Source: Amycolatopsis mongoliensis
GTDB taxonomy: Bacteria > Actinomycetota > Actinomycetes > Mycobacteriales > Pseudonocardiaceae
Assembly: GCF_030285665.1 (NCBI RefSeq)
Contig: NZ_CP127295.1
Coordinates: 6,138,001-6,202,000, forward strand
DNA: 64,000 nucleotides
Reading direction: 5' to 3'
Shown here: positions 33,824-50,280 of the stretch, one piece after another
Layout of the letters: each line of letters starts with the position of its first letter
How positions within the stretch are numbered: the stretch's first letter is position 1
Notes under the pieces: generated by a model
The model's database searches: none
Seen by the model: only the letters and a program-made list of their open reading frames with translations
What the model was told of the DNA's origin: nothing
Made by a program: the position numbers and the translations under genes

Positions 33824-34381
33824 ATGGGAGCCGACAAGGTACGGGGTGGGGCTTGTCCTGATCCAACTTCGCCCGCCGGGACCACTGCGCGCAGGACCGT
33901 CGATCTCACCGACGGACGGCGCGTTTCGGTCGACCTGCTCACCGCGGCCGACGCCCCCGAGCTGGGAGCGGCTATCGAGCACGCCGACCCGGAGACCCTG
34001 TACCGCCGCTTTTGCGGGCCACCACCTCGCGTCACCCCGAAACTCCTTCGGCGCCTCACCGAACTGGACTACGAACGTCGCTACGCCCTCGTCGCCCGCG
34101 CGGCGGACGGACACGGGGTCGCCGTCGCGCGCTACGAAGCCACCGGTGAACCGGGGGTGGCGGATGTCGCTGTGGTCGTGGACCCCGCGTGGCGGCGCGC
34201 CGGTCTGGCCACCGCCCTCGTCCGCATGCTCGCCGAAGCTGCGGTGGCGCACGGTTTCACCCGGTTCACCGCCACGTACTTCGCCGACAACGTTCCCGTC
34301 AGTGAGTTGCTCGACGAAGCCGGTGGCAAGCGAGTGATCGCCCACGGAATCGCCGAAGCGGTCGTCCCGCTGGGCACATGA
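33824..34381 (+). CDS. GNAT-family N-acetyltransferase
   Basis: A 185-aa acetyltransferase of the GNAT fold. The acetyl-CoA binding loop reads RRAGLATALVRMLAE near residue 127, followed by HGFTRFTATYFADNVPVSELLDEAG. The N-terminal part (LTAADAPELGAAIEHADPETLYRRFCGPPPRVT) resembles GNAT domains found beside CBS and universal-stress proteins and in Pat-type protein acetyltransferases. ATG 33824 follows GAGGAGGTG. It is the first gene of the stress-gene island. The substrate, protein or small molecule, is not determined. Confidence 0.85.
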   Translation: MGADKVRGGACPDPTSPAGTTARRTVDLTDGRRVSVDLLTAADAPELGAAIEHADPETLYRRFCGPPPRVTPKLLRRLTELDYERRYALVARAADGHGVAVARYEATGEPGVADVAVVVDPAWRRAGLATALVRMLAEAAVAHGFTRFTATYFADNVPVSELLDEAGGKRVIAHGIAEAVVPLGT

Positions 34382-34559
34382 CGGTGCGGCCGCGACGTGA
34401 TGCCCGGGGTACGGACTGCGAACGCAGTCGAAGCGCTGATCAATGGCGGGATCGGCGACGGCTTCGCCAAAGGCCCCCTCCCAAGTGTGGGACCACGGGC
34501 CGAACCGAGCCGCCGCTTCGTGCGAACCACGGCGCCGGCTGCCCGCTCCCGTGATGGTT

Positions 34560-34934
34560 TCAGCGGACGATCATCGTCTTCCTGCGGAGGGTGATGTTCC
34601 TCAGCAGCACGGACCGGGAGAGCCGTCGTGTGCCGCATTCGCACCAGGCCGGGACCAGGTCGTCGCCGTTGCCGGCGAGTGCGTCGATGTATTCCTCCCC
34701 GCGGGTATGAGCACCGTGCGGGACGTCGACGAAGTCGCGCGAGCCGTGCGCGTGCGGTCCGGTCAGCGCCACATAGACGGGACCGCGTTCGGTGTCGTAC
34801 ACGGCGGCGACGTGGTGACTGGCCGAACAGCGCACTCGCAAGAGCAAGTGGTCGTCGCGGCGCGCGCCGAGTGCGGCGACGTCCCGCTCGGCCTGCTTCC
34901 GGCGATCCGCGGGCGCACGATCCATGTTGCTCAT
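34560..34934 (-). CDS. Hypothetical protein with C-x-C motif
   Basis: A 124-aa soluble protein. ATG 34934 has GGAGGAA just upstream, and a longer frame to the right overlaps the upstream gene. The sequence includes CSASHHVAAVYDTERGPVYVALTGPHAHGS and an AWCECGTRRLSRS segment near the C-terminus, so a metal- or redox-active site is possible. It lies 13 bp downstream of the membrane protein gene at 34948-35283 and is probably co-transcribed with it. No family recognised. Confidence 0.68.
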   Translation of the reverse strand: MSNMDRAPADRRKQAERDVAALGARRDDHLLLRVRCSASHHVAAVYDTERGPVYVALTGPHAHGSRDFVDVPHGAHTRGEEYIDALAGNGDDLVPAWCECGTRRLSRSVLLRNITLRRKTMIVR

Positions 34935-34947
34935 CGGTTCCTCCGCA

Positions 34948-35283
34948 TCACGCCACGCGGTGGAGGTTCTGGGCCTTCTCGAGGGTCCGGGCCTCATCGG
35001 TGTGCTTTCGGGACAGGCTTTCGAGGAACAACAGGACTTCACGCCAGAAATAACCCGCGCCGGCGACGGCGATACCGGTGAACACGATGCCGAGCGCATG
35101 GCTGCGTACGGCCAACGTCCAGGCTGAGAACAGGTCGAAATCCGCGATCCACGCGGTGGCGACGCCGAGTACCACCAGGGCGACCGCCCAGAACTCTCTG
35201 ACCAGGGTCAGCCACCGCGCGGCGATGCCGGACACCGCCACGATTCCCAGACCGAGCAGGACGAGCATTCCGAACGCGTGCAT
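34948..35283 (-). CDS. Small three-helix membrane protein
   Basis: A 111-aa protein with three predicted membrane helices (MHAFGMLVLLGLGIVAVSGIAA, FWAVALVVLGVATAWIA, ALGIVFTGIAVAGAGYFW) and a charged C-terminal tail (ESLSRKHTDEARTLEKAQNL). ATG 35283 has GGGAGG upstream. It heads a two-gene unit with the C-x-C protein. Two DosR-like boxes lie about 210-240 bp upstream, so it may belong to the stress regulon. Function unknown. Confidence 0.7.
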   Translation of the reverse strand: MHAFGMLVLLGLGIVAVSGIAARWLTLVREFWAVALVVLGVATAWIADFDLFSAWTLAVRSHALGIVFTGIAVAGAGYFWREVLLFLESLSRKHTDEARTLEKAQNLHRVA

Positions 35284-35489
35284 GGCACGCCTCCCATCTG
35301 CCGGATCATTCCGGAGAACCAGTGTCAGGCGTGGCTTCCGGGCGGACCAGGGGCCAGAATCGATTCGCCGAGACGCTCTTGCGGCGGTGAGGCATCTTCG
35401 CTCCGGAGCCGTCGGGTGCCGCCACCCCGGGCGGGTCACGGGTTGCCCCGGCCCTCTTCAGGGTTGCCTCGCCGACCTGATCTTCGGCA

Positions 35490-35525
35490 GGGCCAAAAGA
35501 CCTCCGCGGAAGGGACGTTCGTCGG
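35490..35525. promoter_or_regulatory. Two tandem DosR-like boxes
   Basis: GGGCCAAAAGACCT (35490-35503) and GGGACGTTCGTCGG (35512-35525) each fit most of the DosR core GGGxC-N4-GxCCC. Their centres are 22 bp apart, similar to paired boxes in mycobacterial DosR promoters. They lie in the 303-bp gap between the small membrane protein and the CBS gene. Confidence 0.5.
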
Positions 35526-35586
35526 TCGGGCGCGAGTCGGCCGTACGCGGCACGCATGGCCGGCCACCAGTTCGGGTTGATCCGGT

Positions 35587-36018
35587 TCACAGACGCCGCC
35601 GGGCGGTAGGTCGTAGGCGTTCATGCGCGCCGGTGAGCGCCGCCAGCACGTCGCGCAACGTCACCATGCCGACCACCAATCCCTCTTCCACCACGGGTAA
35701 CGAGCGTGTTCCCAGCTCGGCCATGCGGTTCGCCAGGTCGTGCACGCGGGTGCTCGCCGCGACGGCCGGCCCCGGCCCCATCGCCGAACCGGCTGTCCGG
35801 GTCCAGCCTTCGAGTGCCGAGCCGGAGTCGGGGGCGCCGGCCCGGCACAGTTCCCGGAGAACGTCTACATCGGACAGTACGCCCAGTAGCCTGCCGTCCG
35901 GATCGATCACCGGCAGGCTGGTGAACCCGCGGGCAAACATGACCGTGGCCGCTTCGCGGAGCGTCGCGGCGGGGGTGACGGCGATCGTCGGCGTGGACAT
36001 GATCTCGCGTGCGCGCAT
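35587..36018 (-). CDS. CBS-pair domain protein
   Basis: A 143-aa protein made of two CBS motifs: AREIMSTPTIAVTPAATLREAATVMFARG with SLPVIDPDGRLLGVLSDVDVLREL, and a second with RMAELGTRSLPVVEEGLVVGMVTLRDVLAAL. Stand-alone CBS pairs bind adenine nucleotides and act as energy or redox sensors. ATG 36018 has GGAAGGAG and CAGGAG upstream. A DosR-like box lies 62 bp upstream. It is divergent from the universal stress protein gene. Confidence 0.92.
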   Translation of the reverse strand: MRAREIMSTPTIAVTPAATLREAATVMFARGFTSLPVIDPDGRLLGVLSDVDVLRELCRAGAPDSGSALEGWTRTAGSAMGPGPAVAASTRVHDLANRMAELGTRSLPVVEEGLVVGMVTLRDVLAALTGAHERLRPTARRRL

Positions 36019-36079
36019 GGCTCCTGCTCCTTCCTTGCCGGCGTCACACGAACCTCTCTTCCGGCTCGGCGAGAACGAA

Positions 36080-36093
36080 GGGCACTAAGTCCT
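36080..36093. promoter_or_regulatory. DosR-like box between CBS and USP genes
   Basis: GGGCACTAAGTCCT matches the DosR consensus well in its right half (AGTCC) and has the GGG of the left half. It is 62 bp from the CBS start and 136 bp from the universal stress protein start, so it could serve both directions. Confidence 0.45.
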
Positions 36094-36229
36094 CGAGCCG
36101 CTGTCGAAGTGCCATGAGGATGTGGTGACCAACAAGCGTCCAAGGCCTCCTTGATGCGCGCGTCACTGCCGCGATCCTTGAAGGTGGGCCCGCTTGCCGC
36201 ATCGTGGCCACGGTAGGAGGCGAAGCGTC

Positions 36230-36739
36230 ATGGAAACGCCAGGACGTGACGACATCATCGTTGGTGTGGACCGTTCGACCACCGGCGAGGCGGCGCTTCA
36301 CTGGGCAGTCGCCGAGGCCGCCGCGAGCGGGCGCCGGGTCGTCGCACTGCGGGCCTGGACGTGCGAGCCGGAGTATGACCTCGGCGCCGGCGTCACCGGC
36401 TGGCCGGAAACCGCCGAGTTGCGGCAACGGCGTGAACTCGACGAAATCATCGAGCGGGTCCAGGCGGCCCATCCCGGCGTGCAGATCCGGCCCGAGGTGA
36501 TCGGGCATTCACCCGCGGTCGCGCTCGTCGAAGCTTCCCGGACGGCGGCGATGATGGTCCTCGGCGTCCACCGGCACGGCGCGTCGCCGCCGGTGGCTGT
36601 CGGCTCGGTCGCAGACCAGTGCTTGCAGGAGGCGACGTGCCCGGTGGTGATCATCCCCTGCGGCATCGACGCCGATGACCGGGCTGGTCCGTGGCGGCCG
36701 CAGGATCCCTCGAAGTCCAAGGAGTTCCACGGACCCTGA
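36230..36739 (+). CDS. Universal stress protein (UspA family)
   Basis: A single-domain 169-aa UspA-type protein. It opens with DDIIVGVDRSTTGEAALHWAVAEA and keeps the ATP-binding signature MMVLGVHRHG then VGSVADQCLQEATCPVVII (G-2x-G-9x-G-S form). Mycobacterial USPs of this type are strongly induced under hypoxia and nitric oxide. ATG 36230 follows TAGGAGG. The C-terminal tail (PSKSKEFHGP) is short and disordered. It sits among CBS, CapA and DUF2267 genes, consistent with a dormancy regulon. Confidence 0.93.
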   Translation: METPGRDDIIVGVDRSTTGEAALHWAVAEAAASGRRVVALRAWTCEPEYDLGAGVTGWPETAELRQRRELDEIIERVQAAHPGVQIRPEVIGHSPAVALVEASRTAAMMVLGVHRHGASPPVAVGSVADQCLQEATCPVVIIPCGIDADDRAGPWRPQDPSKSKEFHGP

Positions 36740-36888
36740 CCGCGCGTCGGCAACGAGGACCCGCCCGAGGAAGATCCGACGTTCAAAGGCCGCCGAATGT
36801 CCGCCCTGCGGGCGGGTCCCGGTCCCTCCCGCCGAAGAGGTTCGCGCATCCGATGCCCCTTTCGAAGGGGCGAAGGACTCGTGCCGGA

Positions 36889-36902
36889 GGGACTTTCGTT
36901 TC
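36889..36902. promoter_or_regulatory. DosR-like box upstream of capA-like gene
   Basis: GGGACTTTCGTTTC keeps the GGGAC half exactly and the TTTCG centre shared with the other boxes here. It is 114 bp before the start. Close by are CCCCTTTCGAAGGGG (36857-36870 region) and a CCCCT-CAAA-AGGGG hairpin at about 36903-36916. Confidence 0.45.
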
Positions 36903-37016
36903 CCCTCAAAAGGGGTGGTCGCTGTCCTGCCACGCGACAATCGGTTGCGTAGTTCGGTGAAGGCGGGGAACGTCGTGGTCAACGAGCATGCTGTGACCAC
37001 CCTGAAGGGAGGAGAG

Positions 37017-38135
37017 ATGAACCCGGTTACCGTGTTTTTGTGCGGTGACGTGATGCCGGCCCGCGGGGTCGATCAGATTCTCCCCTGTTCCGGAGATCCC
37101 GCGTTGCGGGAGCCCGTCGTCGACGATGCACGCACGTATGTCGCGCTGGCCGAGAAGGTGAGCGGACCCATCCCGCGCCCGGTCGATTTTTCCTGGCCGT
37201 GGGGCGTGGCCCTCCCGGTGCTCGAAGCGGAGGCGCCGGACGTCCGGCTGATCAACCTGGAGACCAGTGTCACCGCCGGCGGCGAGTTCGCGCTGGACAA
37301 GCAACTGCACTACCGGATGAGTCCCGGCAACCTGCCGGTGCTGACCGCGGTCCGTCCGGACGCCTGTGCGCTGGCGAACAACCACGTCCTGGACTTCGGC
37401 GTGGCCGGGCTCACCGACACCCTCGGCGTCCTGAACCAAGCAGGGCTTCGCGGGCTCGGCGCCGGGTACGACGTCATCGAGGCAACGGAGCCGGTCATCG
37501 TCCCCGTCGACGGGACCCGGCGTGTCGTGATCTTCGCGGCGGGCATGGCGAGCAGCGGTGTTCCCCGGCGCTGGGCCGCGACAGGGACTCAGCCCGGTGT
37601 CTCGTTCGTCCGCGACCTGTCCGGCCGCAGCGCCGCCGAGGTGAGCCGGCGGGTGCTGGAGCACAAGAGGCCCGGCGACGTCGGGATCGTGTCGCTGCAC
37701 TGGGGTACGAACTGGGGGTATCGGGTGGATCCGAGCCAGGTGCGTTTCGCGCATCGGCTGATCGATGCCGGTGTCGACGTCGTCTACGGGCACTCCTCGC
37801 ACCACCCCCGGCCGATCGAGGTGTACCGCAACAGGCTGATCCTCTACGGCTGTGGCGACGCCATCAACGACTACGAGGGAATACCCGGACACAGCAACTA
37901 CCGGGATGACCTTCGGCTGCTGTACTTCGCTTCGTTCAAATCAGGCAGCGGGGAACTGGCCTCGCTGCGCATGCTGCCTCTGCAGGCGCGGAAGATGCGG
38001 CTCGAGCACCCCGCAGACCGGGACGTCGAATGGCTGCGCTCGCGGCTCGACAGCGTGTGCCGCCCGTTCGGCGTCCGAGTCGGCCGAGAACCGTCCGGCA
38101 TGCTGCAGATCGGTCAGGCCCAGCTGCCGCATTGA
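37017..38135 (+). CDS. CapA/PgsA-like metallophosphatase-fold protein
   Basis: A 372-aa protein of the CapA family (calcineurin-like phosphoesterase fold, poly-gamma-glutamate biosynthesis CapA type). Motifs are VFLCGDVMPARGVD at the N-terminus, INLETSVT, LANNHVLDFG, LHWGTNWGYRVDP and GHSSHHPRPIEVYRNRLILYGCGD, supplying the Asp, Asn and His metal ligands. No signal peptide is visible. M. tuberculosis Rv0574c, a DosR-regulon gene, is a CapA-like protein of similar size. ATG 37017 follows GGGAGGAGAG; the longer frame to 36675 overlaps the USP gene. The biochemical role is uncertain. Confidence 0.9.
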   Translation: MNPVTVFLCGDVMPARGVDQILPCSGDPALREPVVDDARTYVALAEKVSGPIPRPVDFSWPWGVALPVLEAEAPDVRLINLETSVTAGGEFALDKQLHYRMSPGNLPVLTAVRPDACALANNHVLDFGVAGLTDTLGVLNQAGLRGLGAGYDVIEATEPVIVPVDGTRRVVIFAAGMASSGVPRRWAATGTQPGVSFVRDLSGRSAAEVSRRVLEHKRPGDVGIVSLHWGTNWGYRVDPSQVRFAHRLIDAGVDVVYGHSSHHPRPIEVYRNRLILYGCGDAINDYEGIPGHSNYRDDLRLLYFASFKSGSGELASLRMLPLQARKMRLEHPADRDVEWLRSRLDSVCRPFGVRVGREPSGMLQIGQAQLPH

Positions 38136-38148
38136 GGCCCTTGGTCCC
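38135..38148. promoter_or_regulatory. DosR-like box upstream of DUF2267 gene
   Basis: AGGCCCTTGGTCCC fits GGGxC-N4-GxCCC with one mismatch at the first base. It begins at the last base of the capA-like stop codon and lies 58 bp before the DUF2267 start. Confidence 0.55.
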
Positions 38149-38206
38149 TTTACCGTGCTCGGAAGAAGAGCGAGCCTGATGGTTCCCCACGATCAGGAGG
38201 TGTGTC

Positions 38207-38842
38207 ATGAGCCCTCATCGTGATCCGCTTGCCCATGCGCAGCAGCGAGCGCACGAGTGGCTGACCGCCGTCGCCGCGCAGCTGGGCACCGAGGACCGTC
38301 ATTTCGCCTATCGTGCGGTGCGTGCCTGGCTGCACCTGGTCCGCGATCGGCTGACCGTGGACAGCGCGGTGCACCTCGGCGCGCAGCTGCCGCAGTTCCT
38401 GCGCGGCGTCTACTACGAAGGATGGGCGCCGGCGAAGGTCCCGGTTCGCTACGACGCCGACCGGTTCAGCGCCTTGTTCGCCGGCGAGGCGCAGGTCGGC
38501 ATCGCCGAGGTGCCTGCCATCGCCGGTGCGGTGTCCGCCGCGATGAACGGATTGTTCTCACCCGGCCAGCTCGACCACGTCTTCACGGTGCTGCCCGCCG
38601 GGCTCCGGAGTGAGCTCGAAGGCCGGCCTCCGGTCGCATCCGCGCAACCGGCGAGCCACGGAACCGAACATTTGCGGCTCAACGCCCTGGAGGACACGGT
38701 GCTGCTGTTGACCGATGCAGTCTCGGCGTTGGTGCGCGGCCTGGAGGAACTCCCCACCGGCGAACCTGGCGGCGGCCGTGCCGCGAAAGCGGCGCAAGAG
38801 GCACACCGCATCCTGATGTCACGCGACGCCGTGCAGACGTAG
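38207..38842 (+). CDS. DUF2267 domain protein
   Basis: A 211-aa protein whose first ~130 residues match DUF2267 (AHEWLTAVAAQLGTEDRHFAYRAVRAWLHLVRDRL, AAQLPQFLRGVYYEGW). The rest is helical, with a VLLLTDAVSALVRGLEEL coiled-coil-like end. The biochemical function of DUF2267 is unknown; it occurs with stress and CBS proteins. ATG 38207 follows AGGAGGTGTG, an excellent ribosome site. A DosR-like box lies 58 bp upstream. Confidence 0.9.
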   Translation: MSPHRDPLAHAQQRAHEWLTAVAAQLGTEDRHFAYRAVRAWLHLVRDRLTVDSAVHLGAQLPQFLRGVYYEGWAPAKVPVRYDADRFSALFAGEAQVGIAEVPAIAGAVSAAMNGLFSPGQLDHVFTVLPAGLRSELEGRPPVASAQPASHGTEHLRLNALEDTVLLLTDAVSALVRGLEELPTGEPGGGRAAKAAQEAHRILMSRDAVQT

Positions 38843-38879
38843 CGGATGCGTCGGCTCCCGGTTGTCCCCGGGCAAGCCG

Positions 38880-38893
38880 AGGACTTTCGGCTC
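38880..38893. promoter_or_regulatory. DosR-like box upstream of small Cys-rich gene
   Basis: AGGACTTTCGGCTC differs from the best local sequence AGGACTTTCGGCCC by one base. It lies 94 bp before the start of the gene at 38988. Confidence 0.5.
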
Positions 38894-38987
38894 TTCTCGC
38901 TGCCGGAGCACCGGCGAGATCCTTCACGGGATCAGCGGGTCGCCACGACGTGGTGGCCTCTCGGGACGAGGAGAGGAGCAGTGGGTC

Positions 38988-39227
38988 ATGGCTGAATGCG
39001 AAGTCTGCGGCAACGACTACGACAAGGCGTTCCAGGTCATGACGTCGGACGGTACCGGTACGCACGTGTTCGACAGCTTTGAGTGCGCCATCCACCAGCT
39101 GGCGCCGGTGTGCGTGCGGTGCCACTGCCGGATCATCGGCCACGGCGTCGAAGCCGTCGACGCGATGTACTGCAGCGCCAGCTGCGCGGCGGCAGCGGGT
39201 GTCGTGGGCGTGCGGGACCGGATCTGA
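38988..39227 (+). CDS. Small cysteine-rich, zinc-finger-like protein
   Basis: A 79-aa protein with C4-x2-C7, then CVRCHC and a C-x3-C pair (MYCSASCAAAAG), the spacing of metallothionein/YHS-like zinc ribbons. It begins MAECEVCGNDYDKAFQV. ATG 38988 has GGAGAGGAG upstream. It probably binds zinc or another soft metal; a role in redox sensing or protein contact is inferred only. A DosR-like box lies 94 bp upstream. Confidence 0.85.
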   Translation: MAECEVCGNDYDKAFQVMTSDGTGTHVFDSFECAIHQLAPVCVRCHCRIIGHGVEAVDAMYCSASCAAAAGVVGVRDRI

Positions 39228-39418
39228 CGAGCCGGTGTCCTCGCCGATCGGGCGCGACTCGGCGAAGACGACAAGGCCCGCCCGAGGATCGAGCGGCTTT
39301 CGTCGGACGACGTGGGAATCCGAGCTCCGGAGTTCTCGAACTTCCGGCCATCTCCTCGAGCGGGTCACCGGGTTACCCCGGCTGCACCACGATCGCGCGG
39401 GCGGGCTGCGCACAGACA

Positions 39419-39432
39419 GGGCCGGAAGTCCC
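39419..39432. promoter_or_regulatory. Perfect DosR-core match with no clear target gene
   Basis: GGGCCGGAAGTCCC satisfies GGGxC-N4-GxCCC at every fixed position. It lies in the 321-bp space between the Cys-rich gene (ends 39227) and the convergent sigma-factor gene (ends 39549). The only ORF after it is a 38-codon frame at 39453-39569, with no recognisable product. The rest of this gap shows no gene. Confidence 0.45.
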
Positions 39433-39548
39433 ACGCCGGAGAGCTGTTCGTCATGGCCGTAGCATGCGTAGCAGCTCGGAGCGAGGAGAGCTGGACCCGG
39501 CTCGCCCAGGGCAAGCCTGCGCACAACCGATCAGCACCTCGCTGCCGA

Positions 39549-40490
39549 TCATCCCGCGGGAGCGAGTGAACGTCGGTGCTCGCCCAGCTCGCGCAGCCGG
39601 ACCAGCACCTGTTGTTCCAGCCTGCGGACGCGCTCGCGGGGAAGCCCGAGCCGGCCGGCCGTTTCCTGCACTGTGTGCGGACGCCCGTCGTGCAGCCCGT
39701 ATCGCATCGTGACGACCTGACGCTCGAGTGGCCGGAGCACCTCGAGGAGTTCGTGTGTGCGAGCGGTGTCGACGTCGTCGTCCGTCGGTGCTTCCGAGCT
39801 TTGCGCGATGAGGTCGCCGAGCACGGTCTTCCCGTCGTCGCTCACCGGCGCGTCCAGGCTCGCGGTGGTCCGGGCGACGGTGCACAACTCCACCGCCCGT
39901 TTCGCCGTGATCCCGGCTTCTTCGGCGATTTCCCTCGTGGTGGGCTCACGCTGAAGGGTTGCGCGCAACCGGCCGCGGATTCGGTCGAGTTCGGCGAGCT
40001 GTTCGGTGGCGTGCACGGGTACCCTGATCGTACGGCCGGTGAGGTCGGCGCCGCGGTGCATCGCCTGCCGGATCCACCACATCGCGTAAGTGGAGAACTT
40101 GTATCCCTTGGTGTAGTCGAACTTCTCGACCGCGTGGATCAGCCCCAGGTTGCCTTCCTGGATCGCGTCCAGCAGCGGTAGTTCCGGGGGGCGGAACCGC
40201 TTGGCGGCGGAGACGACGAGCCGCAGGTTCGCCCGGATCATGTGGTCCTTGGCGCGCTTGCCGTCTTCGGCAATCGCCTGGAGGTCGCCTACGGCTGCTG
40301 AAAGTTCCTGCTGACCGGTCTCGGTCCGGTGCAGGAGCTTCGCGGCGTAGACGCCTGCTTCGATGCGTTTCGCGAGGGCCACCTCGTCTGCCGCCGTGAG
40401 CAGCGGGGTGGAGCTGATTTCCGCGTAGTACCGGCCGACCGCGTCCACGTCGGTCTGGGGCCTGGTCACCTTGGTCGTGTTGTCAGTCAA
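39549..40490 (-). CDS. Group-2 sigma-70 factor (HrdB/SigB-like)
   Basis: A 313-aa principal-like sigma factor without region 1.1. Region 1.2 (DAVGRYYAEISSTPLLTAADEVALAKRIE), region 2 (HMIRANLRLVVSAAKRF, LDAIQEGNLGLIHAVEKFDYTKGYKFSTYAMWWIRQAM), region 3 (LREPTTREIAEEAG-like) and region 4 (LRPLERQVVTMRYGLHDG, VQETAGRLGLPRERVRRLE) are all visible. Because it has region 1.2, it belongs to group 2, not the ECF or FliA groups. The start is TTG 40490, supported by AGGAGGTGA upstream. Such factors govern stationary-phase or stress programmes, and this one could serve the surrounding genes. Confidence 0.94.
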   Translation of the reverse strand: MTDNTTKVTRPQTDVDAVGRYYAEISSTPLLTAADEVALAKRIEAGVYAAKLLHRTETGQQELSAAVGDLQAIAEDGKRAKDHMIRANLRLVVSAAKRFRPPELPLLDAIQEGNLGLIHAVEKFDYTKGYKFSTYAMWWIRQAMHRGADLTGRTIRVPVHATEQLAELDRIRGRLRATLQREPTTREIAEEAGITAKRAVELCTVARTTASLDAPVSDDGKTVLGDLIAQSSEAPTDDDVDTARTHELLEVLRPLERQVVTMRYGLHDGRPHTVQETAGRLGLPRERVRRLEQQVLVRLRELGEHRRSLAPAG

Positions 40491-40585
40491 TTCTTGGTCA
40501 CCTCCTGACCGGTCTACGGCTCAAAACGAGCCGAATCACCATTGAATTCCCCAAAAGGGTCGAAGCTCGTGGTTTGTCCATGCCG

Positions 40586-40599
40586 GTGACCAATGGCCC
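40586..40599. promoter_or_regulatory. DosR-like box upstream of phosphoribosyltransferase gene
   Basis: GTGACCAATGGCCC matches GGGxC-N4-GxCCC with one substitution. It lies 36 bp before ATG 40636 and 95 bp from the divergent sigma-factor start. Confidence 0.5.
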
Positions 40600-40635
40600 T
40601 TGTCACGCCGACCGGAGTGCGCCGACCATCGGTTC

Positions 40636-42437: not shown

Positions 42438-42497
42438 AGGTCCTCGGAGCGGGAGCACTCTGCGGGTGCGTTCGTCTGCGAAGTCGAGGAGGTTGTG

Positions 42498-42917
42498 ATG
42501 ACCACTGCTCGGGACATCATGCACGCCGGCGCTTCGTGCATCGGGGAGAACGAAACCCTGGAAGCGGCCGCCCGGCGCATGCGGGAACTCGATGTCGGTT
42601 CGCTGCCGATCTGCGGGGAGGACGACCGGCTGCACGGCATCCTCACCGACCGGGACATCGTGATCAAGTGTATCGCCGCCGGCGCGGATCCGCGGATGAT
42701 GCGGGCACGGGAGCTGGCCACCGGTGTCCCGCACATCGTGCGCGCGGACGCCGGCGTCGACACGGTGCTCGCGGTGATGGAGGAGCACCAGGTGCGCCGG
42801 CTGCCGGTGCTCGACCAGAACCGGCTGGTCGGCATGATCAGCGAGGCCGACCTGGCCCGGCACCTCCCGGAGCAGGCCGTCGGCCGGTTCGTCGAAGCGA
42901 TCTGCGCCGCGAGCTGA
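42498..42917 (+). CDS. hrp1: Hypoxic-response CBS protein, Hrp1-like
   Basis: A 139-aa CBS pair that closely resembles M. tuberculosis Hrp1 (Rv2626c) from end to end: MTTARDIMHAGASCIGE, LPICGEDDRLHGILTDRDIVIK, VMEEHQVRRLPVLDQNRLVG, ADLARHLPEQAV and FVEAIC. The two cysteines at residues 14 and 39 are kept; in Hrp1 these form a disulphide. ATG 42498 follows GAGGAGG; GTG one codon earlier is possible. Hrp1 is among the most strongly induced DosR genes in M. tuberculosis. Its ligand and role are not settled. PolX follows 25 bp later. Confidence 0.93.
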   Translation: MTTARDIMHAGASCIGENETLEAAARRMRELDVGSLPICGEDDRLHGILTDRDIVIKCIAAGADPRMMRARELATGVPHIVRADAGVDTVLAVMEEHQVRRLPVLDQNRLVGMISEADLARHLPEQAVGRFVEAICAAS

Positions 42918-42942
42918 CGACGGCCGCCGAGGCGAGGCCGAA

Positions 42943-44691
42943 GTGTCCCGGTCGAACGACGCCGTCGCGGGCATGCTGCGGGAATACTCCGAGCTGCTCG
43001 CGATTGCCGGCGGGCCGGCGTTCAAGGTGCGGGCCTACGAAAAGGCCGCCCGGGCGGTGGCCGGGCACCCGGACGACGTGACGGGGCTGTCCGGCAAGGA
43101 ACTGCGGGGGATCCCGAACGTGGGTGATCACCTCGCCCGCAAGATCCTCGAGTTCCTGGACACCGGATCGGTGACCGAGCTGGTGGAACTCCGGTCGCGG
43201 GTGCCGGAGGGGTTGCGCACGCTCCTCACGGTGCCCGGGCTGGGACCGAAGCGGGCGCACCAGGTCTACGAGCAGCTCGGCATCACGTCGATCGACGGCC
43301 TGCTGCAGGCGCTGCACGAGCACCGCTTGCAGGATCTCCGCGGCTGGGGCGCGAAGACCGAGGACAACCTCGCCGCGTCCCTCGGTGAGGCTCATTCGGC
43401 GGGCGAGCGCGTGCAGCTCGGTTTCGCGCTCGACCTCGCCGAGGAGCTGCTGACGCGGATTTCGGCCTGGCCGCAGGTGCGCAGAGCCGCGTACGCCGGT
43501 TCGCTGCGGCGGATGCGGGACACCATCGGGGACATCGACCTGCTGGTGGCAGCCGGCGAAGCCGAGCCTGTCATGTCCGGCGTGGTGGAGCTGCCGCACG
43601 TGGCCCGGGTGCTGGCCCACGGCCCGACGAAGACGTCAGTGGTGACGAGCACCGGGGTCCAGGTGGACGTCCGGGTGGTGCAGCCGGACGTGTGGGGCGC
43701 TGCCCTGTTGTACTTCACCGGTTCCAAGCAGCACAACATCGAGGTCCGCGAACTCGCCGTGCGGGCCGGGCTGAAGCTGTCGGAGTACGGGCTGTTCGAC
43801 GTCGAGACCGGGGTGCTGGTGGCGGCCGAGACCGAGGAGGAGGTCTACGCGCGGCTCGGTCTGCCGTGGATCCCGCCCACCCTGCGGGAGGGTGCCGGTG
43901 AGGTCGCGGCCGCGCTCGGCGGGCGGCTTCCGCAGCTGGTACGGATCGGGGACGTCCGCGGTGATCTGCACACTCACACCGACCTGACCGACGGGGTCGC
44001 CACCCTGGAGCAGATGGTGGCCGCGGCGAAGGCCCGCGGGTACGAGTACTACGCCGTCACCGACCACGCGCCGCTGTTGTACATGCAGCGGATGACCCGG
44101 GAAAAGGCGCTGGCGCAACGGAAGCGGATCCGGGAGCTGGAGCGGACGTCGGGGATGTCGCTGTTGCACGGTACCGAGCTGAACGTCCAGCCGGACGGCT
44201 CGCTCGACTGGGACGAGGAGTTCCTGTCGACCTTCGACATCGTGGTGGCCTCGGTGCATTCGCAGTTCCGGCAGCCGCGTGCGGAGATGACGGCCCGGGT
44301 GCTGCGCGCGATCGAGCATCCGTGCGTCCACGTCATCGGGCACCCCACCGCCCGGGTGATCGGTACCCGCCGGCCCGTGGACCTGGATTTCGACGCGGTG
44401 TTCCGGGCGGCCGCCCGGACCGGGACCGCGCTGGAGATCAATGCGTTCCCCGAACGCCTCGACCTCGACGGCGACCTGGTGAGGCGCGCCCGCCACCTCG
44501 GCGTCCGGTTCGCCGTGTCCACCGACGCGCACGCCGTACCGCATCTGGACTTCATGCGGTACGGCGTGGCGACAGCGCAACGCGGCTGGGCCGCGCCCGG
44601 CGACGTCGTCAACACCTACCCGCTGGACGAGCTGCGCCGGTTCCTCGCGAAACCTCTGGTGACGGCCGGGGAGAGGACCTTCACCCCTTGA
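42943..44691 (+). CDS. polX: DNA polymerase X / 3'-5' exonuclease (PolX)
   Basis: A 582-aa bacterial PolX. The N-terminal helix-hairpin-helix regions are visible ([42 protein letters not shown]). The nucleotidyltransferase core holds [16 protein letters not shown] with the G-S and D-x-D catalytic pattern. The C-terminal PHP exonuclease domain carries [32 protein letters not shown] and [13 protein letters not shown]. Such enzymes fill small gaps in base-excision repair. GTG 42943 starts it just after hrp1. The 3' end overlaps the convergent rtcB gene by 11 bp. Confidence 0.95.
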
Positions 44692-46099
44692 CCACCCCGA
44701 CGGGGACCAGGCGGGCGACCTTGCGGCACAGGCCCGCGCCTTCGGCAGCGTCGATGACGGCGTCGACGTCCTTGTAGGCCGCCGGCGCTTCTTCGGCGAG
44801 GCCTCGCCACGACGTTCCCCGCACCGCGATACCCCGGGATTCGAGGTCATCGCGGAGCCGGTGGCCGTCGACCTCTCGGGCCGCGGCGTGGCGGCTGCGA
44901 ACGCGCCCGGCACCGTGGCAGGTGGAGTGGAACGCGGGCGAGCCGGTCACCCCGGCGAGGACGTAGGAGGAGGTGCCCATCGTGCCGGGGATGAGCGTGG
45001 GCTGGCCGGTCGCGGCGAGGTCGGCGGGCAGGTCCGGGTGGTGCGGAGGCAGGGCCCGCGTCGCGCCCTTGCGGTGCACGCACAACCGCCGCCACCGGCC
45101 GTCGACCTCGTGGCTCTCGATCATGGCGAGGTTGTGGGAGACGTCGTAGACCAGCTCGAGCCCGGCGCCGGTGTGCCGCTCGAACGCGCGCCGGGCGGTC
45201 TCGGCGAGCAGCTGGCGGTTGGCGCGGGCGAAGTTCGTCGCGGCGGCCATGGCACCCAGATAGGCGTGTCCCTGGGCGGAATTCACCGGGACGCACGCGA
45301 GCTGCCGATCGGGCACCCGGATTCCGTAGCGGCTCATCGCTTCGTCCATCGTGCGGACGTAGTCGGTGCAGACCTGGTGCCCGAGTCCGCGGGAGCCGGT
45401 GTGGATCATCACGCAGACCTGGTGCCGGTGGAGGCCGAACACCGCGGCCGTGGCCTCGTCGAAGACCTCGTCGACCACCTGGACCTCGAGGAAGTGGTTG
45501 CCGGACCCCAGACTGCCGAGCTGGCCGAGACCCCGCTCGATCGCTCGGGCGCTGAGCCGGCCCGGGGCCGCGTCCGGGACCTGGCCGGCGTCCTCGCAGC
45601 GGGCCAGATCGCGGGGCACCCCGTGCCCGGCTTCGACGGCGTACCGGGCGCCGCCGAGCAGCACGTCGTACAGTTGTGCCCGGTCGGCGAGCTGCCAAGT
45701 ACCGCCCCGGCGCAGACCGCGGGGGACCGTGTGGCCGAGGGTGTCCATCAGCGGGCCGAGCGCGGTCGCGAGCTGGTCCTGGTCCAGCTGGGCGGCGAGC
45801 AGCCGGACGCCGCAGGAGATGTCGAACCCGACACCGCCGGGGGAGACCACGCCGCCGGCACTGACGTCGGTCGCGGCGACGCCGCCGATGGGGAAGCCGT
45901 AGCCCCAGTGGACGTCCGGCATGGCGTAGGAGGCGGTGACGATGCCGGGCAGGGTGGCGACGTTGGCGACCTGCTCCAGCGACTTGTCCCCGGTCGCTTC
46001 GGGCAGGAGCTCCCGGGTCGAGTAGACGATGCCCGGCACCCGCATGGGGCCGTGCCGGGGGATGCGGAAGCGATACCGGGTCTCGGGGATGACGTCCAT
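44681..46099 (-). CDS. rtcB: RNA-splicing ligase RtcB
   Basis: A 472-aa RtcB ligase, which joins 2',3'-cyclic phosphate or 3'-phosphate RNA ends to 5'-OH ends using GTP and Mn. Diagnostic motifs are [33 protein letters not shown] with the metal-binding Cys, [41 protein letters not shown] and [11 protein letters not shown] with the guanylylated His. ATG 46099 lies 7 bp after the archease stop on the same strand, so the two form an operon. RtcB could repair tRNA or rRNA cut by stress-induced nucleases. Confidence 0.96.
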
Positions 46100-46106
46100 C
46101 GTGTCC

Positions 46107-46532
46107 TCACACGTCGATGGTGACCGAGCACGACCAACCGTCCGGGCCGGGTGCGCAGCGCAGTTCGTGCAGCGACACCGCCTTCGGGACGGAACCGACG
46201 GGGGTCGCGGCCGCGGCGTCGATCATGGTGAACCGGGCGCGCAGCCTGCCGGGGGCCGCCTGGATGTCGGTGTGGACCGGGATCTCGCCGGCGGTGTCGA
46301 GCCGGTAGATGACGTCGTCGAGCACGGCGGCGAGGAGATCCGCGTCGCCGTCCGCGCGCACGTCTTGTTCGACGACACGGTGCGGCTCGGTGCCGGACGG
46401 TTCCGCGAAGCTTGCCACCATGCCGGCGACGGCCTCGGCGATGCAGCGCTCGCGGGTCGTTGCCCACGCCTCGACGCGCAAGTCGGCCGTGTGGGCCACG
46501 GCCCGGTGGCCGGACGGGCGTCTTTCGGTCAT
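46107..46532 (-). CDS. Archease (RtcB activator)
   Basis: A 141-aa archease. It opens [29 protein letters not shown] and contains [22 protein letters not shown] and a C-terminal [25 protein letters not shown]. Archease promotes guanylylation and turnover of RtcB in characterised systems. ATG 46532 has GGAGAACC upstream and rtcB follows 7 bp after its stop, supporting a functional pair. A GGGGCCAAAGTCGA element resembling the island's DosR-like boxes is about 80 bp upstream. Confidence 0.93.
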
Positions 46533-46612
46533 CTGGTTCTCCAGCCGTGCCCGGCGGTGAGCCGCGGGTGTCCGCCGGTGGCCAGTATTCGCGCGTGCGT
46601 GATGATCGGATA

Positions 46613-46626
46613 GGGGCCAAAGTCGA
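46613..46626. promoter_or_regulatory. Weak DosR-like element upstream of archease-rtcB
   Basis: GGGGCCAAAGTCGA on this strand reads TCGACTTTGGCCCC on the other. It resembles GGACTTTCGGCCC with one base missing in the centre. It lies 81 bp upstream of the archease start, at a distance like that of the other boxes. Confidence 0.35.
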
Positions 46627-46787
46627 TTCCCCGGGCACAAGTGTTGCCACCGAAGACTTCGTGCTCTCGTGGGGATCCCGGTGCCGCCCGGTGCGGGCTC
46701 CGGGGCCGTGGGGCTTCCGGAGCAGGATCGAGGAGATCGCTCACCTCGGCGACACCGGCGGCGGTCGAGCGGAACCGTCGGTCCGGC

Positions 46788-47006
46788 TCACGAGGCCGCC
46801 CGCGAGAGACGGTATCCGGGCACGAGGACCGGCCGGCCGGCCTCGAAGCGAACCCACACCGAGCCCGGTCGCAGGTCGGGATCCTGCACGATGACGACGC
46901 CACGAGCGCCGTGGTACCGACCGCCGGTCACCTTCACGCGAGCACCGTCCGGGAAGGCTTCCTCGCCGAGCGGACCGTCGGGAATCGGAAGCGGATGGCT
47001 CACCAT
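46788..47006 (-). CDS. Small KOW-like domain protein
   Basis: A 72-aa protein. ATG 47006 opens MVSHPLPIPDG, then ARVKVTGGRYHGARGVVIVQDPDLRPGSVWVRFEAGRPVLVPGYRL. The V-x-V-x-GG-x-Y-x-G-x-x-G-x-V pattern is like a KOW/SH3-like beta-barrel that binds RNA or protein. It stands alone between the archease operon and the acyltransferase-Hsp20 gene. The in-frame extension to 47123 is less likely. No family name can be given with certainty. Confidence 0.62.
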   Translation of the reverse strand: MVSHPLPIPDGPLGEEAFPDGARVKVTGGRYHGARGVVIVQDPDLRPGSVWVRFEAGRPVLVPGYRLSRAAS

Positions 47007-47215
47007 CGGCTGCGGCCCCCTTGTTCTCACCTGCGCCTGTGCTGGTATCGACACCAGTAGACCCGCATCGGTGCTCGCGGGCAGCGCGAGTGCCGTCAGG
47101 ACACTCCGGAACCACCCGCCCAAGGGATGCCCGAGCGCGGGTCGGTGCTTCGGGCCTCTGGACCGGGGGCGAAAGCCACTGGCCCGGCCGGACGCCGGAG
47201 CCGCACAGTGCCGGC

Positions 47216-49069
47216 ATGGCGGAGTCGTCCGGGTCGAACGACGCCGGGTTCCGGCGGCGGCCGGAGCCTCGGTGGGCGTTCCCGCGGCCCGGACGAGGGC
47301 GCCTGCCCGGGCCGTCGGCGCGCGAGCCGGCTGTCGATCTCTACCGGGTCGTCGCGGTGGTCGTGGTGGTGCTCGGGCACTGGCTGGCGGCGTCGGTGAC
47401 CTACACCGGCGGGCGGTTCGCCGACGAGAACGTGCTCGCCGCGCTGCCCTGGACGCGGTGGCTGACGTGGGTGTTCCAGGTGATCCCGGTGTTCTTCCTG
47501 GTCGCCGGGTACGGCGGTGCCGCGTCCTGGACGAGGTGGCCCGGCGGCTGGGCGGACTGGTTGCGGCACCGCCTGACCGGCGTGGCCGGGCCGGTGACCG
47601 CGTACGTCGTGGCGATGCTCGTGGCGGCCGAGATCCTTCGCTGGTGCGGAGCGAGCGGCGCGCAGCTGGCCTACGGTGCCTGGGCGGTCGCGTTGCACCT
47701 GTGGTTCCTGCCGGTGTACCTGGTGCTCGTGCTGCTCACGCCGGCGGCGGCGGCGCTGCAGCGACGCTGGGCAGCCGCGCCCGTCCTGCCCGCCGTGGCG
47801 GTGGTACTCGTCGACGCGCTTTCGCTGACCGGCCTGGTTCCCGTGCTCGGCTGGGCGAACTACCTCCTGGGCTGGGGCGCGGTGTTCCAGCTCGGCATCG
47901 CCTGGCACGCCGGGGTCTTCTCCGGCAGGCGGCCGCTCGTGCTGGCCGGGGGTGCACTGGGTGTCCTGGCGGTCCTGGTGTGGCTGGGTCCGTATCCGGT
48001 CAGCATGGTCGGGGTGCCGGGGGAGGCGGTGCGGAACACGTCGCCGCCGAATGCGGCTTTGCTGGCTTTTGCCGCGGTACAGGCCGGGTTGCTGGTGAGC
48101 GCCGCTCCGGCGGTGACCGCGCGGATCCGCCGTCGCTCGGCGCGGGCGAACGCGTCCGTACTGGCGGTGTACCTGTGGCACATGGTGCCGGTGGTCGTCG
48201 TCGCGCTCGTCGGCTACCCCCCAGGCCTGTTCCCGCAACCGCACGCCGGCTCGCCCGGCTGGTGGGCGTTCCGGGTGCCGTGGCTGCTGCTGCTCGCGGT
48301 CGTCATGGCCGCCGGCCTGGCGTTGCTCGCCGCCGCCCGGAGAGTGACCGCGCGGTGGTGGCCGGTTGTCGGCGTCCGGCGGTGGGCGGGGCCGGTTCTC
48401 CTCGTCGGCGTCGGCGTGATGGCGTTCGCGTTGTTCCGGTTCGCCGTGCACGGCTTCGCACCCGACGGCCGGTTCCCGGCAGGCACGGCCCTGCTCTACC
48501 TCGCCGGCGTCGGCCTGGTCGGAATCGGCTCGTTGCCGGCGCGGGGTGGAACGGCGGCAGAAAGGCCTTTGGTCACTTCGATCGGGGCAGAACGGCTGCG
48601 GCGGCTCCGGACGAGCGGCGGTTTCGTGGAGCGGAGCAGCGATCGAGGGAAGGAGAACGAGGTGGCCTCACTCATTCCACGGACCAAGGTGAAGCTCCCC
48701 GCCGTGAGCGACTGGTTCGACCTGGCCTGGCCGTTCGGCGAGCGCTACCCGGTCCGGATCGAGGAAACCGCGGCGGACGGGAAGTACACGGTCCGGGCGG
48801 AGTTGCCCGGGTTCGACCCGGAGAAGGGCGTCCACGTGTCGGCCGGGGCCGGGTCGTTGACCATTTCGGCCGAGCGGGAGGCGACGTCCGAGCGGAAGGG
48901 CCGCAGCGAGTTCCGCTACGGCTCGTTCAGCCGCACCGTGTCGCTGCCCGAAGGCGCGGAGACCGCGAAGATCGCCGCCACCTATGCCAACGGGATCCTC
49001 GAAGTGACGGTGCCGTACGAGGAGCGCGAGACGGGCGAGCAGGTCGAGGTCCCGATCACGAAGAACTGA
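47216..49069 (+). CDS. Membrane acyltransferase in frame with an Hsp20 domain
   Basis: One uninterrupted frame of 617 aa. Residues about 30-440 are an acyltransferase-3-like integral membrane protein with some ten hydrophobic helices. It opens with the AVDLYRVVAVVVVVLGHWLAA segment, which carries the conserved R and H, and has VIPVFFLVAGYGGA and LAVYLWHMVPVVVVAL. After a roughly 40-residue linker, residues about 480-617 are a small heat shock protein (alpha-crystallin) domain. There is no stop codon between them, so translation from ATG 47216 must produce a membrane-tethered chaperone unless it is terminated otherwise. A good internal start for Hsp20 exists at 48662. The gene could be a true fusion or an overlapping pair. 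Confidence 0.8.
   Translation: MAESSGSNDAGFRRRPEPRWAFPRPGRGRLPGPSAREPAVDLYRVVAVVVVVLGHWLAASVTYTGGRFADENVLAALPWTRWLTWVFQVIPVFFLVAGYGGAASWTRWPGGWADWLRHRLTGVAGPVTAYVVAMLVAAEILRWCGASGAQLAYGAWAVALHLWFLPVYLVLVLLTPAAAALQRRWAAAPVLPAVAVVLVDALSLTGLVPVLGWANYLLGWGAVFQLGIAWHAGVFSGRRPLVLAGGALGVLAVLVWLGPYPVSMVGVPGEAVRNTSPPNAALLAFAAVQAGLLVSAAPAVTARIRRRSARANASVLAVYLWHMVPVVVVALVGYPPGLFPQPHAGSPGWWAFRVPWLLLLAVVMAAGLALLAAARRVTARWWPVVGVRRWAGPVLLVGVGVMAFALFRFAVHGFAPDGRFPAGTALLYLAGVGLVGIGSLPARGGTAAERPLVTSIGAERLRRLRTSGGFVERSSDRGKENEVASLIPRTKVKLPAVSDWFDLAWPFGERYPVRIEETAADGKYTVRAELPGFDPEKGVHVSAGAGSLTISAEREATSERKGRSEFRYGSFSRTVSLPEGAETAKIAATYANGILEVTVPYEERETGEQVEVPITKN
48563..48576. promoter_or_regulatory. DosR-like box upstream of internal hsp20 start
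   Basis: AGGCCTTTGGTCAC fits GGGxC-N4-GxCCC with two mismatches. It lies inside the acyltransferase frame, 85 bp before GTG 48662, where a promoter for Hsp20 alone would be expected. Confidence 0.45.
48662..49069 (+). CDS. Hsp20 small heat shock protein, probable internal start
   Basis: A 135-aa Hsp20 readable from GTG 48662, which has GAAGGAG seven bases upstream. It opens VASLIPRTKVKLPAVSDWFDLAWPFGERYPVRIEE. The alpha-crystallin core is visible as GKYTVRAELPGFDPEKGVHVSAG, EFRYGSFSRTVSLPEGA and ATYANGILEVTVPYEE, with the G-x-L-type motif. The length is typical for bacterial Hsp20 and for M. tuberculosis HspX (Rv2031c), a hallmark DosR gene. It shares frame and stop with the acyltransferase and would be made separately if the internal promoter is used. 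Confidence 0.85.
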   Translation: MASLIPRTKVKLPAVSDWFDLAWPFGERYPVRIEETAADGKYTVRAELPGFDPEKGVHVSAGAGSLTISAEREATSERKGRSEFRYGSFSRTVSLPEGAETAKIAATYANGILEVTVPYEERETGEQVEVPITKN

Positions 49070-49112
49070 GCGGAGCAGGGCGCGATTCCGCCGCCGCTGC
49101 CGCGCCGGTTTC

Positions 49113-50105
49113 TCAGGTGATGGGGTGATGGTGGTACTTCGGCGGTGCTTCGAGCGGTTGCAGGACGTCACCCAGCCTGCGCCGCGGAGGTGCGGCCAGG
49201 GGCTCGGCGTTGGCGGCCGCCCATCCGATGCGCAGGACGACCTGGGGGACGGAACCGCCCGTGACGAGCTTCTTGACGGTCTGGCGGACGCCGGGGAGCT
49301 GCAGCGGTTCGGTGAGCGGGCAGGAGGACAGCCCGAACGCGGTCGCTTTCAGCAGTACTACGCTCGTCGCTTCGCCCGCGCGCAGGCGGGACAAGCGGTC
49401 GTCGCCGGCGGTGCTCAGCACCAGCAGCACCGTTTCCGTGTTTTCCCGGCGGTTACCGGGCCTCGCCGTGAGGTGGCCCATGGTCGCCGATCGGGTTCGC
49501 GCCGAGCCGCCGGCGCGAGCGGTGTCGCCCTTGGGGCGGAGCCGATATGCGGTTCTGAGGGCCGGCCCGGTGTAGACGGCGTGCGTACCGGGATGCCGCC
49601 GGGCGGCCTCGGCGATCGCAGCCGTGAGGTAGTGCCGGGCCGAGCCGGTGACCACGTGCAGCTCGGCGCCCTCCCTCACCGCTGCCCGCGCGAGCGATTG
49701 GACGTACTCGCCGGGAACGGGCCAAGCGCTGTGGCGTCGTCGGTCGGCGCGTCGGTGCGGGATCGCAGCCGCCAGGACGATGTCCACCTCGGACGGTTCG
49801 TTCCGGTGCAGGCTCACGACCGCGAGGTGATCGGGGTTTCCGGCCTCGGGTAGCCGGTCCACCTCGGCGGCCCATCCGAGCGTCGCGAAGCCCAGCCGTA
49901 GGTGGTGCAGCGCCGTCCCACAGCCCAATACCAGGTCACGCCCGTCGGGATCGACGCGCGGCAGCCAACGGTCCGGATCGGCGAAAAGGTGCAGCCGACT
50001 GTACCCGGTCCGCCAGCGCCAGGGCTGCGCATTGTGGGCCGAGGGAGCGCGGAGTGCGACGGTCACCGCCGTGTTGATCGTCGCGGCGTCAGGGATTTCC
50101 AGCAT
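49113..50105 (-). CDS. Acg-family nitroreductase-like protein
   Basis: A 330-aa protein of the nitroreductase superfamily, closest to the Acg family (M. tuberculosis Rv2032 and Rv3131, both DosR-regulated). Characteristic stretches are ALRAPSAHNAQPWRWRTG, LVLGCGTALHHLRLGFATLGW, LLVLSTAGDDRLSRLRAGEATSVVLLKATAFGLSSCPLTEPLQLPGVRQ and VLRIGWAAANAEPLAAPPRR. Acg proteins bind FMN yet appear to act in flavin storage rather than nitroreduction. ATG 50105 has AGGTGTG upstream; a longer frame reaches 50234. Two DosR-like elements lie 78 and 162 bp upstream. Confidence 0.9.
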   Translation of the reverse strand: MLEIPDAATINTAVTVALRAPSAHNAQPWRWRTGYSRLHLFADPDRWLPRVDPDGRDLVLGCGTALHHLRLGFATLGWAAEVDRLPEAGNPDHLAVVSLHRNEPSEVDIVLAAAIPHRRADRRRHSAWPVPGEYVQSLARAAVREGAELHVVTGSARHYLTAAIAEAARRHPGTHAVYTGPALRTAYRLRPKGDTARAGGSARTRSATMGHLTARPGNRRENTETVLLVLSTAGDDRLSRLRAGEATSVVLLKATAFGLSSCPLTEPLQLPGVRQTVKKLVTGGSVPQVVLRIGWAAANAEPLAAPPRRRLGDVLQPLEAPPKYHHHPIT

Positions 50106-50183
50106 GGCACACCTGGCTTCCCGTTTTCTACAGTCAACAACCGACGCGGGCAAACTCGGAAGAGCCGGAAGGCCCCGGCTGCG

Positions 50184-50197
50184 AGGACTTCCGCCGC
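50184..50197. promoter_or_regulatory. DosR-like element upstream of Acg-like gene
   Basis: AGGACTTCCGCCGC keeps GGACTT and a degenerate right half. It is 79 bp upstream of ATG 50105 on the minus strand. Confidence 0.35.
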
Positions 50198-50266
50198 TGC
50201 CGAGCGAGCCGACGTATCCCGCCCCACCGATCACGTGCGTCTTCGGGTCTGAAAGAGGCCCGGGTA

Positions 50267-50280
50267 GGGACTTCTTCCTC
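50267..50280. promoter_or_regulatory. DosR-like element upstream of Acg-like gene
   Basis: GGGACTTCTTCCTC keeps the GGGAC half of the DosR box. It is 162 bp from the Acg-like start and together with 50184 would form a spaced pair. Confidence 0.35.

Follow-up and report, generated by a model that had tools for sequence, protein, structure and literature searches.

A putative accessory block of a DosR/OsdR-type regulon in Amycolatopsis mongoliensis

Introduction

Does a compact run of stress and repair genes in Amycolatopsis mongoliensis answer to a DosR-type regulator, and which of its genes would belong to that regulon? The question concerns a 64,000-nucleotide stretch (the window, positions 6138001-6202000 of a 10.81 Mb single-contig genome of ~70% GC), in which a block, or island, of about 16 kb spans 33.75-50.18 kb (33601-50684 in the statistics). 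The promoters of this block carry the same 16-bp box as promoters around the DosR orthologue of the genome. Judged from sequence, the block is very probably an accessory part of a DosR/OsdR-type regulon, as the regulator, the sensor, the boxes, the promoter geometry and the gene families all fit. The kind of system is convincingly a known one, because the closely similar OsdR/OsdK regulon of Streptomyces coelicolor (SCO0167-SCO0219) has been published (PMC5069765); what is new in detail is the organism, the way the genes are packed and the members added.

In the proposed mechanism, low oxygen or nitric oxide would lead the kinase to phosphorylate DosR, and the phosphorylated regulator would bind the boxes, cooperatively where these are paired, and recruit RNA polymerase. 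The stress proteins produced would be the universal stress protein (USP), the Hrp1-like CBS proteins, Hsp20, the Acg-family protein, the CapA-like protein, the phosphoribosyltransferase and the DUF2267 protein. RNA repair (archease-RtcB) and DNA repair (a CBS-PolX operon) would be switched on too, and a SigB-like sigma factor would be induced and could relay the signal. Genes and their starts were called with a simple codon-based gene finder, and families were assigned through Pfam, NCBIfam and PDB sequence searches.

Enrichment of DosR-type boxes

DosR-type boxes precede the genes of the island above chance. Boxes were scored with a matrix whose starting point was the set of OsdR sites published for S. 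coelicolor (Table 1 of PMC5069765). It was then refined on upstream regions of this genome at 8.57-8.73 and 0.74-0.80 Mb; the window was excluded from the training. The resulting genome-own matrix, drawn from 40 sites, approximates RGGGACCWWNGGCCCY; it is 16 bp long and symmetric by construction. The background was 400 kb of the same genome in 20 regions, drawn at random so as to avoid known box clusters; one of these regions was replaced by hand (3890001-3910000), as it overlapped a stretch already in the analysis. A box scoring at least 11 was found in 10 of 14 island upstream regions, in none of the 17 to the left or the 11 to the right, and in 2 of 255 in the background (Fisher P 1.4e-13). 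Counted as sites, the island holds 10 at this threshold, where the background predicts 0.47 (Poisson P 9e-11). Sixty dinucleotide shuffles averaged 0.9 sites with a maximum of 2, and no background region had more than 2.

Starting from the DosR matrix, refinement put 10 of the 14 island regions above the 98th percentile of the background; with 30 scrambled matrices as starting points, the same procedure yielded no such region in 26 cases, one in three and three in a single case. A sequence-only reading of the window had counted at least ten promoters with a DosR-shaped element and proposed a comparison with shuffled DNA; given the matrix statistics and the scrambled-start control, its count is right, and the comparison came out in its favor. 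Cruder descriptions give smaller effects. The M. tuberculosis core GGGACTWWAGTCCC, with up to three mismatches, matched the island at four places, whereas 30 shuffled versions averaged 0.9 matches with a maximum of 3; the S. coelicolor OsdR matrix alone was only mildly enriched (6 sites of at least 8 in the island, 5 in a left flank twice as long and none in the right).

The regulator and its kinase

The sequence-only reading had proposed looking for dosR and dosS in the genome. A close DosR orthologue and a DosS/DosT-type GAF kinase were found, both in the box-dense region at 8.57-8.73 Mb, 2.4 Mb from the island. The orthologue, encoded at 8606663-8607301, matches DevR (PDB 3c3w, E 1e-94), with which it shares 150 of 209 aligned residues (72%), and it retains D54, K179, K182, N183 and T198. 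We take K179, N183 and T198 to be functional DosR residues. Its sequence is that of a NarL-type regulator predicted to have kept its phospho-Asp and DNA contacts, and roles have been described for D54 and K182 (PMC3029386, PMC5999986).

The kinase has the domain order GAF-GAF-HisKA_3-HATPase. Its GAF domain matches DosT (2vzw, E 1.1e-64) and also DevS, and it carries an HHPPM segment containing the expected histidine, presumably the haem ligand. A partner kinase with a DosS/DosT-type sensory GAF domain, predicted to be of the haem type, together with HisKA_3 and ATPase domains, is thus encoded.

A second DosR-like regulator, 69% identical to the main one, is encoded at 780540 (0.78 Mb), with a kinase at 777670, in a region with the same box. 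This regulator could be the actual controller, which counts against the main DosR as master of the island: the boxes would be real and read mainly by the second regulator, or by both paralogues, and the island might answer another signal. The two regulators probably have a box in common, so sequence cannot tell them apart. The strong match of the main DosR to DevR and its position among 38 boxes of at least 11 in 160 kb (a training region) nevertheless make control by the second regulator unlikely. The stretch 748762-781157 as a whole contains this regulator, DosS-like kinases and boxes of its own.

Further box-rich stretches are present in the genome. Together, the island and seven other stretches (L017-L021 and the training region at 8.57-8.73 Mb) cover about 277 kb, selected for clustered consensus matches, and hold 60 boxes of at least 12, of which the training region contributes 31. 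Four were counted in nine other stretches (176 kb) and 8 in the 400 kb background. Outside the training set, 8945001-8985000 (L018, L019) has 11 such boxes in 40 kb, as against 8 per 400 kb of background.

Promoter geometry

Many boxes keep one constant spacing to a -10-like hexamer, at which the proximal box overlaps the -35 position, and further boxes are often nearby. Outside the window, 61 box-gene pairs were examined, some with one box in common; in these a NANNNT hexamer started 38 bases from the box start in 14 cases and 39 bases in 11. Every other offset from 20 to 69 had 0-5 hexamers (about one), except 60 and 61 with 10 each; lying 22 bp beyond 38/39, this second peak reflects box pairs. 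Boxes exactly 22 bp apart made up 12 of 54 close pairs outside the window at a threshold of 7, 4 of 37 at 8 and 2 of 22 at 9, and the island has two such pairs (35489/35511 and 36866/36888). The same count with the window included, on pairs 55-115 bp from the gene, gave 31 of 68 hexamers at 38 or 39, with a shuffle maximum of 7 at any offset. The looser NANNNT was tried after the stricter TANNNT.

Within the island, a hand count found the hexamer at 38/39 in 9 of 14 box-gene pairs (box at least 9.5, gene within 250 bp, the overlapping register 36071 omitted and the hsp20 start added by hand). Its position puts the predicted transcription start about 35 bases past the box end, and at this fixed spacing the proximal box covers the -35 position. 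For M. tuberculosis DosR, a site located 34 bp upstream of the start has been called canonical (PMC5360333), and the proximal site overlaps the -35 element (PMC3029386). The start codons of the phosphoribosyltransferase and acyltransferase genes lie at about the predicted transcription start, which suggests leaderless transcripts.

Distribution and conservation

A DosR match at E <=1e-60, a threshold that admits paralogues too, was found in 79 of 80 genus genomes, against 5 of 80 for the island phosphoribosyltransferase at E 1e-60 (source genome counted) and 4 of 80 genomes for RtcB at E 1e-100 (source included; 3 of 48 from the same genus, 1 of 32 from elsewhere in the order). The regulator is thus core and the island accessory. 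The nearest named relatives of the RtcB are in Longimycelium tulufanense and Amycolatopsis rhizosphaerae (74%).

In the closest relative, G037, whose RtcB shares 89% identity, the gene order of the island is largely kept, in reverse orientation; in the 60 kb examined there, PolX and Hsp20 were not found and the two CBS genes were present as fragments only. The alignment of 16 boxes gave eight without gaps, one (38879) with a 6-base gap and seven unaligned, the nine aligned boxes averaging 91% identity against 81% for flanking non-coding DNA. The box between the sigma factor and phosphoribosyltransferase genes (40585) is identical at 16 of 16 positions in flanks of 64%; 36866 and 36888 keep 15 and 16 of 16, and 38134 and 42042 are identical (the latter 16/16). 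Box 47165 is also identical (16/16), in flanks likewise conserved at 95%. At the end of the acyltransferase gene, the expected place of box 48562, G037 has a box scoring 16.9. A check for insertion of the island gave only 44-49% identical matches for one flanking protein (10 relatives) and none at E 1e-60 for the other.

Several results weigh against the assignment to a DosR/OsdR-type regulon. A simple consensus with at most one mismatch matched 98 times genome-wide, fewer than the 160 matches of a reversed control, though in visible clusters; with the total below the control, the signal must be local and the full matrix is required. The stricter TANNNT gave no peak at 38/39 in 101 box-gene pairs, and the looser hexamer is absent in 5 of the 14 island pairs, the strongest box (hsp20) among them. 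The boxes unaligned in G037 are 33751, 35489, 35511, 39418, 42417, 48562 and 50161; box 36079 is 14/16 identical there with its score down to 6.4, and the gapped 38879 retains 8 of 16 positions. The boxes of archease-rtcB (8.2), the nitroreductase (9.8) and the acyltransferase (10.0) score close to background or no higher. A crude consensus that is not enriched genome-wide would be in keeping with boxes that are mere chance, GC-rich palindromes of a 70% GC genome. As an account of the island this is scarcely credible, however, given the held-out statistics, the scrambled controls, the -10 spacing, the conservation and a box frequency above the real genomic background (10/14 versus 2/255).

Genes of the island and their boxes

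At the left end, a GNAT acetyltransferase gene (33824-34381, plus strand; Pfam Acetyltransf_1, 4.9e-9) follows by 65 bp a box at 33751-33766 (score 13.2) with a -10-like CACCGT at the common spacing. A small hydrophobic protein without a Pfam family (34948-35283, minus) and an uncharacterised gene model without a Pfam match (34560-34934, minus), probably the second gene of the same operon, lie behind a box pair 22 bp apart at 35489-35526 (scores 11.2 and 8.7; 213-235 bp before 35283), the first box having a -10-like AACCCT. A homologue of the hydrophobic protein at locus L158 has a box scoring 12.0 at -76. The next box (36079-36094, 14.8) lies between the divergent genes of a two-CBS-domain protein of Hrp1-like architecture (35587-36018, minus; two stretches of Pfam CBS) and the USP (36230-36739, plus; Pfam Usp on the longer open reading frame (ORF) 36194-36739), with a -10-like GAGGTT on the CBS-gene side only. 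The CapA/PGA_cap-like gene of Rv0574c type (36957-38135, plus; Pfam PGA_cap 7.8e-72 on the longer ORF 36675-38135) is preceded by a second pair with 22-bp spacing at 36866-36903 (9.5 and 12.0), which has no -10-like hexamer at 38/39.

The DUF2267 gene (38207-38842, plus; Pfam DUF2267, 4e-30) has a box scoring 16.7 at -65 (38134-38149; -10-like GAGCCT). Three of 10 scored homologues have a box of at least 9.5, namely that of G037 and two of the 8.6 Mb cluster, a training region, where the boxes (13.3 and 11.2) both have a -10. Behind it, a small Cys-rich protein, zinc-ribbon-like by eye and without a Pfam or NCBIfam match (38988-39227, plus), is 95% identical to a homologue in G037; its box at -101 (38879-38894) scores 14.3 and has a -10-like GATCCT.

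No gene was called downstream of the weak box at 39418-39433 (9.8). Its reading as the promoter of an unannotated small RNA or of an antisense transcript was considered but not adopted: the only hexamer at the common spacing faces the minus strand, where no gene was called, and the stretch is unaligned in G037; on these grounds the box is probably a chance one. All four 14-mers quoted in the sequence-only reading are present (42418, 38135, 39419 and 40586), and three belong to strong boxes (15.9, 16.7 and 12.8, respectively, for 42418, 38135 and 40586); the one at 39419 is this weak box, and its citation as a promoter element probably does not hold.

The group 2 (SigB-like) sigma factor gene (39549-40490, minus; Pfam Sigma70 r1.2-r4) matches NCBIfam PRK07921 SigB at E 4.9e-93, under the cutoff of that family. 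The divergent gene encodes a protein of Rv0571c type, with a phosphoribosyltransferase domain and a C-terminal part (40636-41958, plus; Pfam Pribosyltran on the N-terminal part only). The two have a conserved box in common (40585-40600, 12.8), with -10-like hexamers on both strands, one of them on the sigma side. DUF2267 and the sigma factor are thus well supported candidates for box genes. A box at 42042-42057 (13.7) stands before an uncertain small ORF (42165-42437).

A homologue of Hrp1 (Rv2626c) with two CBS domains (42498-42917, plus; best PDB match 1y5h/1xkf Rv2626c, E 1.5e-49) has a box scoring 15.9 at -73 (42417-42432; -10-like CACTCT). The DNA polymerase X gene, polX (42943-44691, plus; NCBIfam PRK08609, above cutoff), starts 25 bp behind it. 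No box of at least 9.5 was found before the three PolX homologues scored, and PolX likely joins only as the second gene of the CBS-polX operon.

The RtcB RNA ligase gene (44681-46099, minus; Pfam RtcB 1.8e-163) probably forms one operon with the archease gene (46107-46532, minus; Pfam Archease 3e-22 on the longer ORF 46107-46640). Their weak box (46612-46627, 8.2) lies at -87 of archease with a -10-like AATACT at the common spacing. Control may be partial, limited to promoters with a box of at least 11, so that archease-rtcB, the acyltransferase and the nitroreductase would be mere neighbours with chance boxes. Their scores of 8.2-10.0 are near background, only 8 of 79 archease homologues at the examined loci have a box of at least 9.5, two of these intragenic, and Rv2631 had no obvious box and no induction in a chemostat study (PMC2275270). 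By the 8/79 count, most sampled actinobacterial rtcB genes show no sign of DosR control. Against partial control, the archease site scores 11.9 at the same place in G037 and has a suitable -10 in the window; in genome G034, boxes of 15.1 and 14.3 lie about 200 bp upstream of archease, the former without a -10-like hexamer at 38/39, and A. rhizosphaerae (L063) has a box of 13.1 with a -10 before archease. Acg-type homologues elsewhere in the source genome have boxes of 10.5-17.0, in training regions. Partial control is rather improbable, though less so than rule by the second regulator, and archease-rtcB is a moderately supported candidate for a box gene. At four Streptomyces loci of 80 (L069, L075, L081, L086), a PolX homologue is encoded no more than 10 kb away from archease-rtcB, which suggests a recurrent PolX-RtcB neighbourhood.

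The acyltransferase-3 membrane protein gene (47216-48541, plus; Pfam Acyl_transf_3) has a box at 47165-47180 (10.0) with a -10-like CACAGT. The strongest box of the island (48562-48577, 17.2) lies about 92 bp ahead of the GTG start of hsp20 (48662-49069, plus; Pfam HSP20 2.9e-19; best PDB match HspA) and has no -10-like hexamer at 38/39. The acyltransferase ORF has no stop ahead of hsp20 and continues in the same frame across the hsp20 box and the gene itself (47216-49069); in G034 the two genes are in different reading frames. The last gene encodes an Acg-family nitroreductase-like protein of Rv2032/Rv3131 type (49113-50105, minus; NCBIfam NF047509 above cutoff; PDB 2ymv Acg, 1.2e-36), Acg being its sole PDB match at E 0.001; its box (50161-50176, 9.8) is at -63, with no -10-like hexamer at 38/39.

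Core DosR-regulon families are therefore represented by Hrp1, USP, Acg, CapA-like, Rv0571c-type and RtcB, all but Hrp1 and Acg at family level; the assignments of DUF2267, sigma factor, PolX and archease likewise hold at that level. Of the families named in the sequence-only reading, Hrp1, Acg, USP, CapA-like and Rv0571c-type stand, and Hsp20 resembles small heat-shock proteins generically rather than HspX in particular. Its further suggestion, that additional members may extend the regulon, is well supported for DUF2267 and the sigma factor as box genes, moderately for archease-rtcB, and for PolX only through the probable operon; RtcB itself is no addition, Rv2631 being listed already.

Relation to known regulons

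To our knowledge, DUF2267, PolX and the sigma factor are not part of the M. tuberculosis regulon, from which the island differs in holding all three. It resembles that system in its regulator (72% over 209 residues), its haem-type GAF kinase, its Hrp1, Acg, CapA-like, Rv0571c-type and RtcB families, and its multiple boxes with the proximal one over -35. The M. tuberculosis regulon is arranged in nine blocks (PMC5309233), unlike the single 16-kb block that holds these families here. With the OsdR system the island has in common a DosR-type regulator, a palindromic box (AGGGCCGATCGGCCCT) and the clustering of genes that include USP and nitroreductase; several S. coelicolor sites on record (AGGGACCTTCGGCCCC) are close to the box form of the window, and a sigma factor gene (SCO0038) is among the predicted OsdR targets (PMC5069765). 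In contrast to OsdR, the island lies 2.4 Mb from its regulator, its boxes favor a central A/T, and it includes RtcB-archease, PolX, CapA-like and Rv0571c-type genes, none named as such in Table 1 of PMC5069765.

The wiring of tuberculosis dormancy (regulator, sensor, box, box-to--10 distance and paired boxes) thus appears to be preserved outside the mycobacteria, in a large actinomycete that could be used for testing it. The island also bears on whether RtcB is a direct DosR target. Rv2631, an RtcB, is in the M. tuberculosis DosR regulon table (PMC5309233), yet the chemostat study found neither induction nor an obvious box for it; the archease-rtcB box is weak here, moderate in one related genus genome and strong in another. 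No link of archease with DosR, DevR or OsdR was among the literature matches listed. Tentatively, and with somewhat less than even confidence, the DosR regulon of the genus may be posited as a large multi-island network in which a single conserved regulator, found in almost every species, controls blocks whose distribution is patchy; the block in the window would directly couple oxygen sensing to a SigB-like sigma factor, archease-RtcB RNA repair and PolX DNA repair.

Surroundings of the island

Scans of the window for tRNA genes and Rfam families gave no match. Directly left of the island, at 29926-33281, an FtsK/SpoIIIE-type gene is followed by two genes without a Pfam family, and FtsK-like fragments are found about 20 kb from the island of G037 in the region examined there. 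The FtsK-type stretch is possibly a remnant of an integrative element.

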